64,000 nt of DNA from contig NW_004457713.1 in NCBI RefSeq assembly GCF_000203815.1, positions 62,001 to 126,000 of the forward strand, given 5' to 3'. The translations under genes were made by a program, and so were the position numbers. This document shows, piece after piece, positions 14,837-47,222 of the stretch. Below the pieces are notes generated by a model that searched no databases, was not told the DNA's origin, and was given only the letters and a program-made list of their open reading frames with translations. Within the stretch, counting starts at the first letter, position 1; every line of letters starts with the position of its first letter. Source of the stretch: Cavenderia fasciculata (taxonomy: Eukaryota; Evosea; Eumycetozoa; Acytosteliales; Cavenderiaceae).

Positions 14837-17800
14837 ATGAAAGATAAAACTACTACAACATCAGAATGGGATGAAACACCATCAACCAAAACTACAGCAG
14901 CAGTAGCAGCAACACCAAGAAGAAATAGATGGGATGAAACACCACAAAAGTTAGCAACATCAACTATAGAACAGACACCAAAGAGAAGATCTAGATGGGA
15001 TGAAACACCTGTAACGATTAGTGGTGGTATGGGAGGATCTGCAACACCTCAAATAATGAGTGGTGGTATTGGTGCGACACCAAGATTCGATGTATCATCT
15101 ACACCAAACGTATTGATGCATGCTGGTATGATGACTCCCGATGTACATCAATTACGTGCAGAAAAGGAATTGGACGAACGAAACAAACCATGGACAGATG
15201 AAGATCTCAATGCAGCATTGCCATCGGAAGGCTACGAAATATTAATGCCACCTAGTAACTATCAACCCATCATGACACCTGCCAGAAAGTTAATGGCTAC
15301 ACCTGCTGCAGGTGTTGGTGGTGGATTTTTTATGCAAGAGGAAAATAGATCACAAGACTATGGTGTTTCAGAGACAATGACTCAGGGTGGTCTACCAATC
15401 AAACCAGAGGATAAACAATATTTTGACAAGTTGCTCAAAGTAAGCGACGAGGATGAAGAGATGCTCTCACCAGAGGAGCTAAAGGAAAGAAAAATTATGA
15501 AATTATTATTGCGTATCAAGAATGGAACACCACCAATGAGAAAGGCTGCTCTTCGTCAACTAACAGACAAGGCAAAGGAATTTGGTCCTGCCGCTCTGTT
15601 TAATCAAATCTTACCACTCTTTACATCACAATCGTTGGAAGATCAAGAACGTCATCTTTTGGTCAAGGTCATCGATCGTATTCTCTACAAGTTGGATGAT
15701 TTGGTTCGTCCCTTTGTCAGAAAGATTCTTTCAGTCATTGAACCATACCTCATCGATCAAAACTATTATGCTCGTGTAGAAGCTCGTGAAATCATTTCCA
15801 ATCTTTCAAAGGCTGCCGGTCTTGCCAGTATGACTGCAACAATGCGTCCAGATATCGACAGTCCAGAAGAGGATATTAGAAATACGACTGCTCGTGCATT
15901 TGCAGTTGTCGCATCTGCCTTGGGTATTCCTGCACTCCTTCCATTCCTTACTGCCGTTTGTCGTAGTAAAAAATCATGGCAAGCAAGACACACTGGTATC
16001 AAGATTGTCCAACAGATTGCTATTCTAATGGGATGTGCCATTTTGCCACATCTAAAGGGCCTCGTAGAGATTGTTGAACACGGTCTCACAGACGAACAAC
16101 CCAAGGTTCGTACCATTACCGCTTTGGCTATTGCAGCCCTCGCCGAAGCAGCCACTCCCTATGGTATCGAATCATTTGACAGTGTTCTCAAACCACTCTG
16201 GTACGGTATTCAACACTATCGTGAAAAGGGATTGGCCGCCTTTTTCAAGGCCATTGGTTATATCATCCCACTTATGGATGCAAGTTATGCCAGCTACTAT
16301 ACCAAAGAAGTGATGGGTATTCTCATCAGAGAATTCAAAACCAACGAAGATGAAATGAAAAAGATTGTGTTAAAGGTTGTCAAGCAGTGCGTTGGAACAG
16401 AGGGTGTAGAGGCTCAATACATTAGAGACGAAGTGTTGCCAGAGTTTTTCAAATGTTTTTGGATCAGAAGAATGGCTCTCGACAGAAGAAATCACAAACA
16501 ATTGGTAGATACCACCGTAGAGTTGGCCAACAAGGTTGGCGGTGCAGAGATTATCTCTCGTATTGTAGATGACCTAAAGGACGAGTCAGAGGCTTACAGA
16601 AAAATGGTTATGGAAGCTATTGAAAAGATCATCTCTACACTTGGCGCTTCCGATATCAACCCTCGTCTTGAAGAACAGTTGATCGATGGCATTTTGTATG
16701 CCTTTCAAGAACAAACCACCGACGAAACTGCCATTATGCTTCAAGGTTTTGGTACAATCGTCTTGGCACTTGGTGTGCGAGTCAAGCCCTATCTCACCCA
16801 AATCGCAGGTACCATCAAGTGGCGTCTCAACAACAAGGCGGCCAAGGTACGTCAACAAGCTGCCGATCTCATCTCTCGTATTGCAGTGGTCGTCCAAATG
16901 TGTGAAGAGGAGCAACTCTTGGGTCATCTTGGTCAAATCCTCTATGAATACCTCGGTGAAGAGTATCCAGAGGTATTGGGTTCGATTTTGGGTGCACTAA
17001 AGGCCATTGTCAATGTTATTGGTATGACCAAAATGACACCACCCATCAAAGATCTCCTTCCACGTCTTACACCCATTCTCAAGAATCGTCACGAAAAGGT
17101 ACAAGAGAATTGCATCGATTTGGTAGGTCGTATTGCCGATCGTGGTGCCGATTTTGTTTTGGAACGTGAATGGATGCGTATTTGTTTTGAGTTGCTCGAC
17201 CTTTTAAAGGCACACAAAAAGGGGATCAGAAGAGCCGCAGTCAATACTTTTGGTTACATTGCAAAGGCAATAGGTCCACAAGATGTATTGACAACACTCC
17301 TCAACAATCTCAAGGTGCAAGATCGTCAGAATCGTGTTTGTACTACAATTGCCATTGCCATTGTCGCAGAAACATCTGCCCCCTATACTGTCCTTCCAGG
17401 CCTCATGAATGAATATCGTATCCCAGAGCTCAACGTTCAAAATGGTGTCTTGAAATCGCTCTCTTTTCTCTTTGAATACATTGGCGAAATGGGTAAAGAC
17501 TATATATACGCTGTTACTCCTCTACTAGAGGACGCTCTCATGGATCGTGATCCAGTTCATCGTCAAACTGCATGCTCTGCCGTCAAACACATGTCTCTTG
17601 GAGTACAAGGTCTAGGTTGCGAGGATGCACTCGTTCATCTACTCAATCTTGTGTGGCCAAATATTTTAGAAACCTCTCCCCATGTTATCAATGCATTTTT
17701 AGAGGCAGTAGAGGGTTTACGTATCGCTTTGGGGCCTGCTGTCATTCTTCAATATACTTTACAAGGACTCTTCCATCCAGCTCGTCGTGTTCGTGACATT

Positions 17801-17923
17801 TATTGGAAGGTTTTCAACATGCTCTACGTTTCCTCTCAAGATTCAATGATTCCTGCCTATCCAAAAACAATAGACGATGGATTAAATACTTATCAACGTT
17901 ATGAATTGGAATATATATTGTAA
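14837..17923 (+). CDS. sf3b1: splicing factor 3B subunit 1 (SF3b155)
   Basis: One uninterrupted exon encodes 1028 residues. The N-terminal ~130 residues are Thr/Pro-rich with at least three RWDETP or EWDETP motifs. In the family these are cyclin/CDK phosphosites and U2AF-ligand (ULM) tryptophans that bind UHM proteins and SF3b14. The sequence [19 protein letters not shown] is a family hallmark. From ~residue 215 to the end it is the HEAT-repeat superhelix ([43 protein letters not shown]) that holds the branch-point adenosine as part of U2 snRNP SF3b. The C-terminus ([21 protein letters not shown]) is intact. It is shorter than the human protein (1304 aa) mainly in the N-terminal linker. It has no introns, unlike almost all its neighbours. 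Confidence 0.97.
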
Positions 17924-17948: not shown

Positions 17949-19907
17949 TTATTTAAACTTTGGAGTACTACTATCTTTGGTTTTAGTCTTTTTCAATGAA
18001 CCAGATTTGAAACTTTCAATTGATGATAATAAATTCTTTCTACCTCCTCCCGATCCTGATGGGGTTGATGATGGTGGAGGTGGTGGTGGTGGTGGACCTC
18101 CAGCTGGTGGTGGTGGTGGAGGAGGAGGAGGTGGTGGTGGGCCTCCAGATGGTGGTGGTGGGGCTGGTGGACCTCCAGCAGAGGAACTAGTTGGCTTTGA
18201 AGGAGTATTGAAAAGAGTGGTGGTTGAAATAGTAGAAGCAGTAGTAGTAGTAGTAGTTGGGGTAGTAGAGGTTGTTGAAAATGAAGAAGATAGAGATGGC
18301 ATGGAATTTGAGAAATGACTACCAGTATAGGAAGAGGAAGTTGAAAATGGTTGGGGATTTGAAGAAGAGACATTGAGATTTGTTTGAGAAAGATTAATCT
18401 CAACTGGTACAAATGTCAATTGTTTTCTCTTTTTTTGTTTCTTAAATTCCTTCATTGATGGTACACTCTCTGCTTTTTGAGAAGAGATAAAAGATTTGTT
18501 CAATTTGTTGGCTGCCTCTATCATTTCCTTTTCTCTCGAAGAGTGGGTAATACGTTGAATAGGTAGATTTTTAAATTTATGATAAGAAAAGAAATCCAAT
18601 TTTGATAATTCTTCCAATGATGGTGGATTTCCATACCATGGTTTAAAAATTGATTCTAAAATCTAAAAGAGAGAGAATGATTAATAAAACTAAACAAAAA
18701 ACATTTCTTTTTCTCTTTTGTTTTACTTTTTTAACTTCTTGATGACAATGAGATGGAATACCAACTTCAATTGATTGTTTTGATTCTAGTTCATAACCAC
18801 ATCCCATTTCATATAAAATAGTTCCAAAACATAATACCTCTGGATCCAAATCTGATGAATAAGATGAAAGAATATTTGATAATCTTGGTTTTAATCCTAA
18901 AAATGCATTTTCATAATCACTTATTCTAAAAAAAGAAAAAAAGTTAGATATATTATATTATTCTAATTTTAATTTACATACAAAATATTTTGTTCATCTA
19001 AAAGAATATTTGAAGCATTTAAATGGAAATAGGGGAAATTATGATGTTTCATAAACATTAAAGCTTCTAGTATTTGTCTACCAAACTTTGAGATGAGCTT
19101 TTCGTTGAGTTGGAATGTTTCACGATGTTTGTCTTTGTAATTCATCTTTGGTTTTGCTTGATGAATAAAATCTCTCAATGAACCCTTTGCATAAAAAGGT
19201 CTAATTGAAACTGCACATCTTTTATCTGGTAAATAATCTACCAATAATGGTACACTAATAAATGGATGAATCTAATAAAAAGAAAGAATGTTAAAAAAAA
19301 AGAATTCTTTTCTTTTTTCTCCATCTTTTTTCTCTTACTTCTAAAGATTTGACAAGTGTACGATAGGTATTTCTACCAACCTCTGTAGATAATGGAATTG
19401 GCCATTGATTTGATACTGGAACCATAGACATTATTCTTTCATTGTCTAATCTATTTGTAGGATTGGTGCCAACAACTGAAAAGTAGTTTTTGTCTGTTCT
19501 AGAACCAATCGATGGCAATTGTCTATCAAGACTATAAATAGTAGATCTAAGATAAAATCTTGCATTCATTATGATTGTATCCTCTTTTAGAAAGAAAAAA
19601 TGGTAAGATATTTGTTTTTCTATTCTATGAATTAATCACATGATTATATATTACCTTTGATCTGTTGAGAATTATCTCTTTCATAAACAAAAACATTTCC
19701 TTTTTCTAATGGTGTATACTTTTTACGACTATAAAATAAAATACATATCTAATTAGTAAAAAGAAGGATATTTAAAGATCTCCTCTTGTTTATTATTTCT
19801 GATTCTTCATACTCTTTACTGATGAAATAATATGCAATGAATACAATGATCACAATGATCAATATACCACCTCCACAGGCTATAGCTATAATCTCTGCTG
19901 TATTCAT
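17949..19907 (-). CDS. SLOB-family inactive protein kinase with TM segment and WH2 motif
   Basis: Six exons: 19907-19813, 19728-19655, 19583-19339, 19271-18982, 18925-18727, 18662-17949 (phases 2,1,0,2,0), 538 residues. The N-terminus has a membrane span (IACGGGILIIVIIVFIAYYF) followed by KKYTPLEKGNVFV. Residues ~110-300 are a protein-kinase fold that looks catalytically dead. The HRD loop is replaced by FHLNASNILL and DFG by SDYE, and no clear VAIK lysine is seen. The C-terminal half has Ser/Thr-rich linkers, polyPro blocks (P11 and similar) and a WH2-like motif, KNLLSSIESFKSG (~511-523), for actin monomer binding. This matches PXK/SLOB proteins, which scaffold membrane trafficking and actin. 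PolyPro plus WH2 suggests profilin-actin delivery at a membrane. No PX domain is present. Confidence 0.85.
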
Positions 19908-39494: not shown

Positions 39495-42400
39495 TTATAT
39501 TTCCAATAAATGAACAAAAGTACTACGAGAAAGGCATTGATAGATTGGAGAATGAGAATTGGTTGATGGGTAACTGTAGATTTGTGATAGTTGATGGAGT
39601 AGCTTTTCTGCTTGATTCGATTTGTCCTTTAGAAGAATCAAAAAGAGCATTACTAATTGACCAAGTATTCTTTCTTCACCACCTTGTTTGACGATAAAAC
39701 TATCAGATTCAGAGATACCAATCAATGGAAGTATAACATTCTTTTTCCATCTGATTCCATTAGACAATAGACTATCTACTACTTGGATGAGTGTCTCTAC
39801 TGTACCACCACTAACTGTTTCTGAACCACAATGAGTGATGGTTGTGTCCTTACCACGAGATGATTTTCTCTTTGCTGACGCACTTGCAGAACCTCCTCTT
39901 CCACCTTTACTTGAGAATGAGTCCCTAAAGGCTGAAGTACCAGTACTTAAAAGTTCGGATTTGGGTGGGGCCATATCTTGTGCTTTCTTTTCTCTAGAGT
40001 CAAACATTGAAAGGAACGATGGTAGAGTTCTAGACATCTCAATATTATTGTTCACGTTTGTGTTCTTGTACATGTTGTTATTGTTATTGTTGCCATTGAT
40101 TTGTTCTAGTAGTTCAAGTTGTGAATGTTGTTGTAGTTGTTGTTGATAATGTTGTACTTGTTGTTGTTGTAGAGCTGATAGTTGTTGTGGTTGTGGAGAT
40201 GGTGCCTGTTGTGGTTGTGCTTGTTGATAATAAAATTGCTTTTGTAGTTTTTGTGGTTGTTGTTGTTGTCCTTGTAGTTGTTGTTGTAGTACTAGTTGTT
40301 GTCCTTGTAGTTGTTGTTGTTGTGGAATCATTCTCATCATTCCACTTGGTTTGGGAGCTGGCATTGATTTGTCAGCAGCAGCAGCAGATGATCCAAAAGT
40401 ACTCGAGAGAAGCGAACTAATAGATGAAGCACCTGAAGGAATATCAAAAGATCGGTTAGAGATAGGAGCCAAAGTAACTGAATTAGGACGAGAGGTAGGA
40501 GCAGGAGGGGCTCTACTAACAGGTGGGGCAGGGGCAGGAGAAGGAGCAGGAGCAGGAGCAGGAGTTGGAGCTTCATAATCGAATAGACCGAATCCCATTG
40601 CTCCATCGTCTTCTTCTTCTTCTTCTTCATATCTCACCACAGATTTCTTAGCATATGATGATGATGATGATGAGGAGCTAGCAATGGCAGCAGCAGCACT
40701 GGCAACTGGAGTTGATGAGAAAAAGTCAAACATGTCACCATCTGCGAAACCCATGTCTTGTTCCTCTTCTTCTTGCACTACTTGTTTGGCCAACATCTTT
40801 TTTCCAGCCATTGGTAAAGTAGAGGTGGTTGCAAAAGAAGAAGAGGTAGTAGTAGCTGCTGGTTTGTTGACAACAATAGGTTCAGCTGGATAATCGCCAA
40901 ATAGATCGAATCCCATGTCGCCCTCTGAAGAATCATCATCATCAGCAGCATAAGGTGTTGATATGATGGTCTTTCGGTCGTATGATCTTTCTTTTTCTTC
41001 GGCTACAGGTTCAGGGTAATCTGTCATATATGCCAAACCAGAATCATCATCCCATTCTTCATCGTCGTCTTGATCTGCATTATTTTCCTCTTCAATGAGT
41101 GCCGACGAAAGTCTTCTTCTCGATAGAGCACTTGCAAGAGTATACATCATATCAGACTTTGCTTCCTCTTTCATTATCTCCTTTTTGACTTGTTCAGATG
41201 TCTTTTTCAATGCGAATCCACTTTTAATAGCACCAAGTAGAGACGATTGCTTTTCTGATTCATTAACAGCAGCAACAGAGAGAGAAGAAGCAGCACGTGG
41301 TGCATTGCCTGGTACTGGTGGAGGTGGAGCAGCTAGAGGGGCACTTGGTGGTCTAGGAGCACTTGGTAGTGGTGGAGGTGGTGGTGCACCAAAAGCAGAA
41401 GCACCACGTGGTGCATTGCCTGGTGGTGGTGGTGGAGGTGGAGCAGACTTGGTGATGGGGGCTAGAGTTGGTCTTGGAGGGGCACTTGTTGTTGGTGGTG
41501 GTGGTGGTGGTCCTCCAACCAAAGCTTTACCACGTGGTAGGTGTATCATACCGTTGCCACCAAATGATCTGGCAGCTGGTTGGACAAACATTCCTCCCAA
41601 TGGTACTGATGTAGCTCCAAACAATGTTGTAGGTACACCTGCTGACATTGAACTTGAAAATGATGAACTACTTGCAGAGTATGATAGATTACCTGCAGCT
41701 GAGTAACTTGGAGAAGTTGGTGAATAACTTGGTGAAGTTGGGGAGTAACTTGGAGAAGTTGGGGAGTAACTTGGTGAAGTTGGTTCATAACTTGGAGAAC
41801 TTGGTTCATAACTTGGTTCATAACTTGAATAAGTTGGTAAATAAGTTGGGGCATCATCACGTGGAGCATATGAACCGAAACTTTGAGCATAGTCATGTGA
41901 AACAATACGAGATTCTCTTGATCTGACTGCCCCACCTCTATCTTCTTTCAAAGATGGCTTCGACTCCTTTTTACACTTTTTCTTTTCGAGTACTTCTTTG
42001 AATTTTGCTTTAGGAGCTAATAATTCACCACCACCACCCCAAGAATTATCATATGGAGCAGCTTCACCGCCTTCGCCATATCTCATGTCATGTTCATCTT
42101 CTTCATCCATAATGTCAGACCAACTTTGTTTTGGTTTCTCTGGTGTAACAAGATAACTGTCCAATGTAGCACCACCAACAATTGACCATTGATTGATTTT
42201 AGATGGTGTTGGTTGATCGAGATCAATCTCTGTTGAAGACTGTTGTGGTTTCTTTTTAGATGGTGTTAGATTGATCAATGTTGTTGGTCCATTTTCCTCT
42301 TGTGTCCAATCTGTTAGATCATCACGAATAGTTTGCAAGATGAGTGTCGATTCTGAATAACTATCCTCTGAAAGTGTATCCAATTCACTGATTGCATCGT

Positions 42401-45400
42401 CAAATGACTTTTTAGCCAATTGAATGGCTGTTTCCGGTTTTCCAATCTTTTTATAAAAGGTGGCTACCTTTTTAACAAGACGTAGATGGACTGTGGAATT
42501 GGGAGGTAGACATTGTTGAGACTTGCCAAGGGCACGATCGAAAATCTCTTTTGTCTTTTCAATGACCGACTTTCTGGAAATGTCATTACTCTCGACATTG
42601 GACAATGCATCCATGATTTCAGCATTCTTTTCCAACAAAACAATTGCATGTTCTTGAATGGTACACTTGGTCAATGATGAATCAATCAATCTTAGAATAG
42701 ATTGAGATTGATAGTTTAACTCGTCGATTGCCTTTTGCTTTTCTCTCTTTAACTTGTTGAGAGCCAATGGGGTGGCTGGTTTGGATGACGGGGTGGTGGG
42801 TTGTGGCACTTGTTTGTTAATCTTTGATTGAGTCACGGTGAGGAATGAATCAATTGATTCGGCCAATAGATTGATTTCTCTATTATTGAAATCACCAAAA
42901 GTATCTGCTATTTGATGGAAAATACGGAGTGTTTGGTTATTGTCTTTACTCTCCTCGATGAGATTCTCAAGTTGTTGACGTTTGGTGAGCATGGTTGGAT
43001 CGGATTCATTGTCGACACCATTGCCGGCATCATGCTCATCTTGGAAGGGGATGTATGGTAGTGCGTCAACCTTGTATTGATCGACAATCTCTTTGAGTGG
43101 TGGTGCATTCTTGAGTGGTTGTTCATTCTTTTCACGTTTCTCTACGGCTACAAACGAAGTGAATTGAGTGACGATCGAGTAACGAATCGATAGATCAATG
43201 ACATCACTCTTTTTGGCAAGTTTAATCTTTTCGTGTTGTATTTTGTTTTCACTGTACGATCCGTCATTGTACTCTCTGATCATGGATCGAGCTGCCAACT
43301 TGTGAATCAAACTGCCACGAATAAATCCAATCTCTGGTGTGTGGACAGTGTTGGTGAGCAGACCACCGCCAGGTGCTTGACAGGTGAGTGTGGCACGTGT
43401 ACAAATACCCGAGAATGCATAGATCACTTGACGTTGTTGACGGAAAATGGATGTGATCACTGATGGCGACTGTTCAATCTTGTCGGTAGAGTCAAACTTG
43501 ACGCAGACATTGCTCATTGCCGGTTGGACACAACGTTGCAGTTGGTCGATAATCTTTTTGGCCGATGGACGTTTGTTTGGTGTGATAAACTCTGATTGAC
43601 CTGCACCCAAACGAGCAATCGATTTGATAAAGTGACGAGATACATTCTCACCAATACCAAAACAAAAGATACGACAAAATGATGATGCACGCTTGACCAA
43701 TTGTTGGATTGTCGATTCGTTAGAGACATTACCGTCGGACAAGAGTATAATATTGTTTGGACGAGTGGGTGTGGCATTGGAAGAGAGAAGGATGAGTGAC
43801 TCTAGTGGCAGTAAAAGTTGTGTACCACCATAGCTTGGTTGCAACTTGGTGTTGATATGGTTCCATGCAATCTGGAGATTGGCATCGGTCGGTGCAACAT
43901 TTTCAGCAAAGAGCCAATCGTAAATATCACCAAACTGAACGATATTGAAACGTACATTCATACCACGGAGGTTTTGTACTGCCATACGAAGTGTTCTCAA
44001 CATGTCTTGGAATGGGTCACCACGCATCGAAGCACTCAAATCGACGAGGAAGGTGATGTCGGTTGGTGGAGTTGAATCTGCATCAGCAATACCAGTATCC
44101 AAATCCAACTTTGGATAGAAAGCCAACATGGAAGCATGATGTCCTTTACTGTCAACCTCTACCCACATACGTGGAGAATATACATCCTCCAGACCAATCA
44201 ACAATTGGAAGTTTTTACCAAGTGATAGAGTGTCGGTTGCCTTACTGTCTCTTGTTAGTTCTACCGTTGCTTTGGTATGTGTCTTTTTGAATCGAATGGG
44301 ATGTGATGGTGACACAATCTTTACAATGTTGTATGGCATTTCAAGACCTACTTGAACCGATAGATTGGCTTGTGAATCATCGGATACTTGGACGGTAGAA
44401 GTGGTGGCTTGGGTGAATTGAGCACCCGATAGTTGTCTCTGAGCAGGTGCAATACTGGCAGGTAGAACAAATGAAATGTCGAGACCGTCGACACTCAGCT
44501 CAGTGACATAGGTTATCTTGATGAGTACCTCTGCATTGGCTGGCAAGTTACCAACGCTGACTGTAAACACATCTGGTTTCTCTTCGTCCATTAGATAAGC
44601 TCCATGACCTTCGGCAATAGCTTGGCGATATTCCTTGTGAGCCTTTTCCTTTTCCTTTACCTCTCCAATAATATGTTTACCATTGATGTATGCTTCAAAA
44701 CCACATACAGCTCCCATTTCATCCAATGGGAATACATACTTGGCTTCTATTGGTTTGGATGAGGTATTCTTGTAGTGTTGGTAGATGGTAACCTCTCCAA
44801 TGAGATCCAATAACTTGGCTCTTACATGAACAGCCTTTAGTGGAATCTGAACACCTCCACCAATCAAACCAGACTCTTTTGCCTCTTCTTGTTCCTCTTC
44901 TTGTTTTGATTTTGGTGGAACAGTAGATGAAACAACATCACTATCAATAACAGATGGGATGACAGGCTTTTCTTCAATCTTTAGAGTTGATTGAGGTATT
45001 GGCTTTAAAGATTTGTCTTGTGGTTCAAATTCGATTAGATATTGCAATGTTTGTTGCTTTGGATCGAAAATGACCATTTCATCGTCTGAAAATTGAGAGT
45101 TGTTATTGTCATTCTTGGCGACACCTTGGACACTGTTGAAACCACGTGGTGGTTCGACAAGCTGTGTTTGATGACTTGTATATTTCTTTGTGCTTCCCAA
45201 TGCGACACGACACATCAACATGAATCTATTTGGTGATGCAATGACAGGAGTATCACAATATTGATAACTAGTATTTGCATTGGTTCCAAAATAAATACCA
45301 GCACCCAAATAACCTGCATCACGTCTCTTTGCACCTGCTACCGATCCCGACAACTTTGGTGTCAACAAACCACGAGACAAAATACCTAAAATATTACTTG

Positions 45401-47222
45401 TTCTACTACCATGATACAATGTCTTTACATTTTGAACTTTAAATGTTAAATTCTCTTCATCTCTTCTTTCAATTTTAAATATATTTTTAATATTCATTTT
45501 CTAAAAAAGAAATAATAAAATAAAAGATAGAATTAATATTAAAAGGAAAATAAATATTATTATTATTATACTTGTTAATTATTATTTTTTTACATACATG
45601 ATTTGGATTTAAATTAACTTGGGATGATAACTTTTTAAAATCTTTTGAAGTAGAGTCAATACGAGAGATATTACATCTCATGGCACGGTATCTAGTATCG
45701 ATTGGATTTGAGGTGGCATTAGAGACACCTAGTGATTCACCAACATTTAAAAGATCTTTCATCAATTGTACCATATCTTGAATGTCACCAAGAGATGATT
45801 CAGGTGATGATCGAGCTTGTGGAATATGACCATACAACTCTTGATAGAGTTTGGTTACAACTGGGTCAGAGGTAGGTGTTCCTGATTCAAGTGCAGTGGC
45901 AATTTGGGTGAGTACCAACTCTGCCTTTTCAACTTGTGGCAATGACACTGTTCCCAGTGGCGTTTGAAGTGAACCCTCTGGAGTGAGTGATAGTTTACCC
46001 TTTGATTTGGCATCCATCTTGTCTTCCAAACTTGCAATAGCTTCATTATACAATGTACCAACCAATTGTTGTATCTCTGGTTGAAGTAGTGATGTCGACG
46101 ATTGTTGCAATGGATTCTGTGCAGTTAGTTTATCAGAACCTACAGACAATGTCATCATTGTTTGTTTTTGGTATCCTGGTTTAGTGACCGAATATTGAAC
46201 GACTAAATAGTTGTAGATAGAGAGTGCGTCGGCAATCGAACTGGCACTGATCCACTCCTTTTTAGAAGTACCAACAATATCAGTAGTACGACCTTGGTGG
46301 AGGAATACACGGTAATACGACTGATCATTCGTATCTCTTTCATTAGATACGACAGTATTGACATCACCAATTTGTATGAGTGACAATGTTCCACCGGCAG
46401 CATGCACTTCAATGCAAGCAAATTCCTTTGTACCTCCATTGGTCAACAAACTGTATTTAACAACATGATACTTGTCTTCTGGAAAGGTTGGTGTATCTCC
46501 AGCAATTGACTTGTATACATGTCTCTTTAATTGTGAGAATTTATCTCCAGCCGTAGCACCACCAGCAGCAGTTGCACCATTGCCGTCGTCCAAAAGATTT
46601 CCAAAATCCAATGATTGAAAGTGATGTTCATTAATGTTGTACAGTGATGCCAATGCATATTCATCAGGTGATAGTAAAGATCCAAATTGAGCAGAATCCT
46701 CTACATATTGTTTAGTGACCACTGGTATATTAAACTTTAATGCCTTTCTAATATTGAATGATAAATCATCCAAAAACATATTCTTTTTCTTTCTTGGTGT
46801 CTTTTCCAATTGATTACCATCTTCATCTACATCTAATAATTCATTACCATCATCATTCTCTTCTTCTCCTTCTTGTTGGTTATCATTATTATTATTATTA
46901 TCTTTTGATAATCTATTTAAATCATTGATACAACAAATATAGTAATTTACCTAGATAGATAGATGGAGAGTAATAGTTTAGTTAATATCTATTTCAAACA
47001 CTTATACTTTCTCTCTCTTTATAAATACAATACTTTTTGATTTAATAAAGTAGTGATGGAACCACCATATTTAATGATTAACTCTTGAACTACTTTTTTA
47101 TCTTTTAATGTTACACCTCCACCATCTACATAACATAACTTTGATTCTAAAATCTTGTTTACAACACCACCGGTAGAGTTGATGTTATTGCTGCTGTTAC
47201 CACCACTAGTTCTAATTGTCAT
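39495..47222 (-). CDS. vault-type poly(ADP-ribose) polymerase (PARP4-like) with CTD-like heptads
   Basis: Exons 47222-47034, 46950-45598 and 45500-39495 (all phase 0) encode 2515 residues. The order is that of human PARP4. A BRCT-like N-terminus ([31 protein letters not shown]) comes first, then a helical PARP regulatory domain (~270-510). The ART catalytic domain has the full H-Y-E triad: His544 (LYHGSRTSN), Tyr584 (GAGIYFG), Glu655 (DDEMVIFD). A VIT domain ([14 protein letters not shown]) and a vWA domain with MIDAS DLSAS ([15 protein letters not shown]) follow. The C-terminal ~1000 residues are low complexity: YSPTSPS heptads (~1731-1783), polyPro blocks, acidic and Gln-rich stretches. They end in a conserved tail ([20 protein letters not shown]) like those of VIT/vWA proteins. 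Expected role: ADP-ribosylation associated with vault particles, which dictyostelids possess. Confidence 0.93.

Follow-up and report, generated by a model that had tools for sequence, protein, structure and literature searches.

PARP4-like proteins that carry VIT, vWA and 14-3-3 domains are known from D. fasciculatum, D. purpureum, P. pallidum, A. castellanii, some animals and Capsaspora (Perina et al. 2014, PMC4245714, main text), and those of Salpingoeca, Capsaspora and Acanthamoeba are said in the same text to contain actin or actin-binding domains. The VIT-vWA-14-3-3 type of PARP4 is already published for the group, whereas a literature search over titles and abstract openings returned no report of either heptads or a VCA module in any PARP4. 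The words 'WH2' and 'heptad' have no occurrence in the main text of PMC4245714.

The VCA module of WASP-family proteins activates Arp2/3. According to the main text of a survey of this family (PMC3298513), in which the word PARP does not occur, a proline-rich stretch precedes the VCA in WASP proteins. The order of proline-rich stretch, WH2, C helix and acidic motif with Trp is found in WASP, WAVE, WASH, WHAMM, WAWH and WAML. In the same text the C helix follows a pattern of three large hydrophobic residues spaced by three residues and then Arg/Lys, and the acidic regions mostly contain a Trp. The WH2 motif of such factors has a hydrophobic helix and LKKT. The Pol II CTD is a run of tandem YSPTSPS heptads at the end of Rpb1.

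The locus described here lies in a 64-kb window, the term we use for the whole stretch of DNA analysed (64,000 nucleotides). A minus-strand open reading frame of 2000 aa (39495-45497) and two upstream exons together encode a protein of 2515 residues. The introns are GT-AG and the gene model, which is built from sequence alone, has no internal stop. The gene, its domains and its C-terminal region are as follows:

47222-39495, minus strand: three-exon gene encoding 2515 aa (exons 47222-47034, 46950-45598 and 45500-39495; spliced model)
46693-47156, minus strand: BRCT domain, spanning intron 1 (PF00533, 22.6 bits, cut-off 21.3)
45069-45494, minus strand: PARP catalytic domain, main part (PF00644, E 9.5e-23)
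44508-44840, minus strand: VIT domain (PF08487, E 1.2e-36)
43587-44060, minus strand: vWA domain (PF13768, E 1.6e-19)
42303-42962, minus strand: 14-3-3 domain (PF00244, E 9.1e-27, 94.5 bits)
39498-39920, minus strand: C-terminal region of 141 residues, with no convincing match

The order is that of clade 5 vault PARPs, with the BRCT domain upstream of the PARP catalytic domain and the VIT and vWA domains downstream; the PARP regulatory domain PF02877 scores below its Pfam cut-off. As far as the main text of Perina et al. 2014 describes it, their PARP4-like protein has the same domain set, and the gene is probably the D. fasciculatum PARP4-like gene of that paper (PMC4245714).

Human PARP4 (PDB 11jf, 9bw6) has the ART-VIT-vWA block and the BRCT domain in common with the vault PARP. 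The block aligns to human PARP4 chain 11jf_P over query residues 3-823 (E 2.3e-161), and in this alignment the catalytic His, Tyr and Glu are kept at what we take to be the H-Y-E triad positions of the human enzyme. Beyond the vWA region the good alignment gives out; a further stretch, which covers the heptads, scores -22.7 bits. The 141 C-terminal residues matched no PARP4 chain. No convincing sequence match to an MVP-binding C-terminal domain was obtained there, the best rows being an antibody (E 0.81), MxiC_C (E 0.064) and C7 (E 0.57). By eye the last ~120 residues (39498-39850) look folded, and our guess is that this region may be a diverged vault-binding domain. The genome does code for MVP repeats, all 12 scored matches lying above the cut-off.

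Downstream of the 14-3-3 domain runs a long low-complexity tail that also contains polyQ, polyN and polyP. The heptads lie inside this tail, before a putative VCA module. In order of translation, the features of this part are:

41769-41831, minus strand: imperfect heptad units (21 aa) just before the perfect heptads (codon listing)
41706-41768, minus strand: three perfect YSPTSPS heptads (codon listing and genome-wide pattern search)
41289-41516, minus strand: proline-rich stretch (from the sequence)
41199-41246, minus strand: candidate WH2 motif, 16 aa (pattern fit; Pfam WH2 17.6 bits, below the cut-off of 23.1)
41097-41156, minus strand: C helix with ALSRRR, 20 aa (pattern fit; 16.7 bits with a profile of the organism's own C-A segments)
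41043-41093, minus strand: acidic motif with Trp, 17 aa (from the sequence and end-to-end matches to the organism's own WASP-family C-termini)

The heptad-region peptide (48 aa) has its coding sequence on the minus strand, inside 41688-41831. One of the imperfect units beside the perfect heptads reads YEPTSPS, and Tandem Repeats Finder detects a 21-bp period at 41700-41816 (5.6 copies, 87% matches, score 150). The earlier note had described, in a vault-type PARP, several perfect heptads of the Pol II CTD consensus encoded by 21-bp tandem repeats. The PARP4-like domain set bears out the vault type, the heptads are present and match the consensus exactly, 'several' proves to be exactly three in the whole tail, and the period found by Tandem Repeats Finder confirms the repeats.

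Searching the 31.0-Mb genome with a pattern for every codon choice of YSPTSPS gave 31 matches: 22 in Rpb1, three in the vault PARP gene and six that do not translate to YSPTSPS. The exact heptad therefore occurs in this genome only in these two genes. A tblastn query of seven heptads returned, among the best-scored candidates, four rows for Rpb1 and one for the vault PARP, and the 24 pattern matches in viral contigs included no relative. The repeat unit is the same in both proteins, but the Rpb1 copies stand in tandem at the protein's end whereas those of the vault PARP are mid-protein, and the YEP units of the vault PARP are absent from the organism's own Rpb1 tail. At the codon level, the perfect copies are identical to Rpb1 heptads at a mean of 17.4-17.8 of 21 nucleotides, against 15.0 for independent draws (P 0.005-0.03 per copy). 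Without position 7 the likeness weakens to P 0.02-0.13, and the copies are not mutually independent. Rpb1 is thus a possible source of the heptad DNA, for which the codon likeness is suggestive but not decisive.

The codon listing also contains a graded series of units (25 aa), which favours local growth of the array. Growth of this kind could have been neutral or near-neutral, slippage having extended local YEPS units into an array whose CTD likeness carries no function beyond spacing. The window offers parallels, with six tandem arrays or clusters (heptads included) that have units of at least 12 bp and scores of at least 80, and the homopolymer runs of the tail are of a piece with such a history. 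The exactness of the heptads is harder to accommodate: a seven-residue unit drawn at random would coincide with the CTD heptad, in any of its rotations, with a probability of ~4e-5 if drawn from the composition of the 60 residues that surround the perfect heptads, and of ~4e-7 if drawn from that of the tail, both figures being post hoc. In addition, the perfect copies differ from one another at three nucleotide columns, and all three differences are synonymous (P ~0.023, given that 51 of the 179 possible non-stop changes are synonymous). We consider slippage without function conceivable, though rather unlikely.

The sequence that follows the heptads has what look like the parts of a WASP-family VCA, in the family's order. 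Its C helix presents M1965, L1969 and L1973 followed by R1975-R1977, and its acidic motif, DDDEEWDDD, occupies residues 1992-2000 and includes the Trp. The WH2 motif fits the pattern given in the main text of PMC3298513 except for a Gly at position 3; its Pfam score, below the cut-off, places it last of the 12 rows in a WH2 scan of the genome. When the 68-residue stretch was compared with the organism's own genome by tblastn, five rows including itself were returned. Own WASP-family VCAs were matched end to end, each marginally: L056 (35%, E 0.025), L058 (42%, E 0.028) and L057 (37%, E 0.035). A fourth own VCA, L059, is absent from these rows. A profile was built from the four own VCAs, which had been picked from the 12 WH2 loci for their visible C and acidic parts. 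The vault PARP stretch scores 22.1 bits with it, whereas the highest of 3000 shuffles of that stretch reaches 14.0 and the highest of 638 pieces of the window 6.2, and with the C-A part alone it keeps its lead (best 11.2 in 3000 shuffles and 4.8 in 638 window pieces). A PDB search with the VCA-like stretch gave nothing significant: the top row was the unrelated SSZ1 (E 0.048), and four of the six rows were WAVE1 or N-WASP (E 0.71-1.5).

Unlike WASP-family VCAs, which are C-terminal, this module is internal, with 515 residues following it. It is attached to a PARP, and no WASP-family N-terminal domain was found. Because it does not end the protein, we class it as VCA-like and not as a member of the WASP family. 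We consider this identity quite probable; the predicted ability to activate Arp2/3 is less likely than the identity itself.

Other VCA-like and WH2-bearing sequences were seen alongside. The fifth tblastn row, C10:61338-61529, lies just left of the window and is weakly VCA-like (30%, E 1.69), possibly by chance. Two of the organism's own VCAs (L058 and L059) are WASH-like, and the main text of PMC3298513 lists two WASH genes as an exception of D. fasciculatum, Acytostelium subglobosum and Bigelowiella natans. Within the window, a 191-aa open reading frame (17949-18524, minus strand) combines a long polyproline stretch with a WH2 motif that scores 33.8 bits, above the Pfam cut-off (C10:79964-80050), and is perhaps verprolin-like.

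The heptads might instead be a true mimic of the Pol II CTD that CTD kinases would phosphorylate and that CTD-binding proteins, or condensates of Pol II, would bind, linking ADP-ribosylation to transcription. Since a CTD reader makes contact with two to three repeats, the three perfect heptads together with YEPTSPS would be long enough to engage one. The confinement of exact heptads to this gene and Rpb1, and the codon likeness between the two, speak for mimicry, which still carries some weight given that the heptads match exactly and vary only at synonymous sites. Two basic patches, KKKCKK upstream and KRKSSRGK near the end of the protein, are by eye possible nuclear signals. The codon likeness is tempered by its dependence on position 7 and by the non-independence of the copies, and the adjoining module looks actin-directed; we judge such mimicry unlikely. 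What stands of the proposal in the earlier note is a vault PARP with exact CTD repeats, seen in its domains and in the restriction of the heptad to this gene and Rpb1. The suggested connection to transcription, Pol II and phase separation is not supported by any result here. The sequence downstream matches a WASP-family VCA and points to Arp2/3 and actin. With an exact Pol II heptad outside Rpb1, it can be examined whether CTD kinases and readers also work on proteins other than Rpb1.

The protein could also be both things at once, a CTD mimic with heptads derived from Rpb1 and an Arp2/3 activator, gathering CTD-binding factors and branched nuclear actin. We regard this combination as very improbable; if true, vaults, ADP-ribosylation and transcription-linked actin would meet in one chain.

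Our favoured proposal, held tentatively and with slightly less than even confidence, is that the vault PARP doubles as a WASP-like nucleation-promoting factor, its heptads being part of a proline-, serine- and tyrosine-rich low-complexity linker. The putative branched-actin switch directly after the heptads makes a tie between vaults and the cytoskeleton likelier than one between vaults and transcription. The folded front half (BRCT-ART-VIT-vWA-14-3-3) would be located at or near vaults and would ADP-ribosylate targets there. In the tail, WH2 would deliver actin while the C helix and the acidic Trp motif engage Arp2/3. The heptads and polyproline would form a flexible arm, phosphorylated at SP, TP and Tyr sites. 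SH3, WW, EVH1 or profilin partners may read this phosphorylated arm and in this way tune the VCA. Similarity to the Pol II CTD would in that case have arisen by convergence, or else as a patch borrowed into a new context. The sequence itself gives the domain order, the exact heptads and the likeness to a VCA; Arp2/3 activity, a location at vaults, phosphorylation and the binding of partners are predictions.

Outside support for the nucleation-promoting-factor proposal is thin but independent. It comprises the actin domains of other PARP4-like proteins, the presence of ArpC3 in the organism's own genome, and a pull-down with the VASP EVH1 domain from mouse dendritic cells, whose inhibitor-sensitive hits included Parp4 in both cell states and Mvp in one of them (PMC9581539). 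The authors left these hits unverified, and the same list has histones, Arpc3 and a ribosomal protein (PMC9581539). A VCA in PARP4 would suggest a reason for the recovery of mouse Parp4 and Mvp in this experiment. A PARP4 with a WASP-like VCA would also offer a measurable output, Arp2/3-driven actin assembly. This output would be coupled to ADP-ribosylation, and maybe also to vaults, in amoebae that are amenable to culture and genetic manipulation.

A partner for the phosphorylated heptads might be sought within the protein itself, the 14-3-3 domain standing upstream of them in the same chain and acting as an internal switch. The domain clearly belongs to the 14-3-3 fold family by its Pfam score. 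We compared its groove with 14-3-3 zeta, in an alignment read by eye, and with the 14-3-3 protein of the organism's own genome, with which it shares 67 of 230 aligned positions. The groove residues K49, R56, R127, Y128, N173 and N224, presumably numbered as in zeta, are all replaced in both alignments, by D, Q, D or E, A or I, K and D. The alignments disagree at R127/Y128, giving D and A in one and E and I in the other. W228 is kept in the alignment to the own 14-3-3 protein, which itself retains all six tested residues. These replacements make a canonical phosphopeptide-binding role unlikely, and the domain is probably a pseudo-14-3-3 with a scaffold role, which disfavours its holding phosphorylated heptads. 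We rejected it as the heptad reader, and such a switch appears extremely unlikely.

Closer to the C-terminus, the tail contains three acidic P-stalk-like motifs (40572-40604, 40728-40763 and 40890-40925, minus strand), among them MGFGLFD and MGFADGDMF. The region matches Pfam Ribosomal_60s with E-values of 4.7e-6 to 1.4e-5, just below the cut-off in protein searches and above it when the genome was scanned. MGF[GDE]LF[GDE], searched for as a degenerate DNA pattern, turns up at two places in the genome, both in the vault PARP gene. We record the P-stalk likeness of MGFGLFD as an observation and do not argue for mimicry, since this motif lies inside the protein and three P-protein tails of the organism's own end in MGMGLFD.

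Elsewhere in the window, a plus-strand open reading frame of 1028 aa (14837-17923) shows HEAT repeats and DETP motifs by eye, and we take it to resemble the splicing factor SF3B1.
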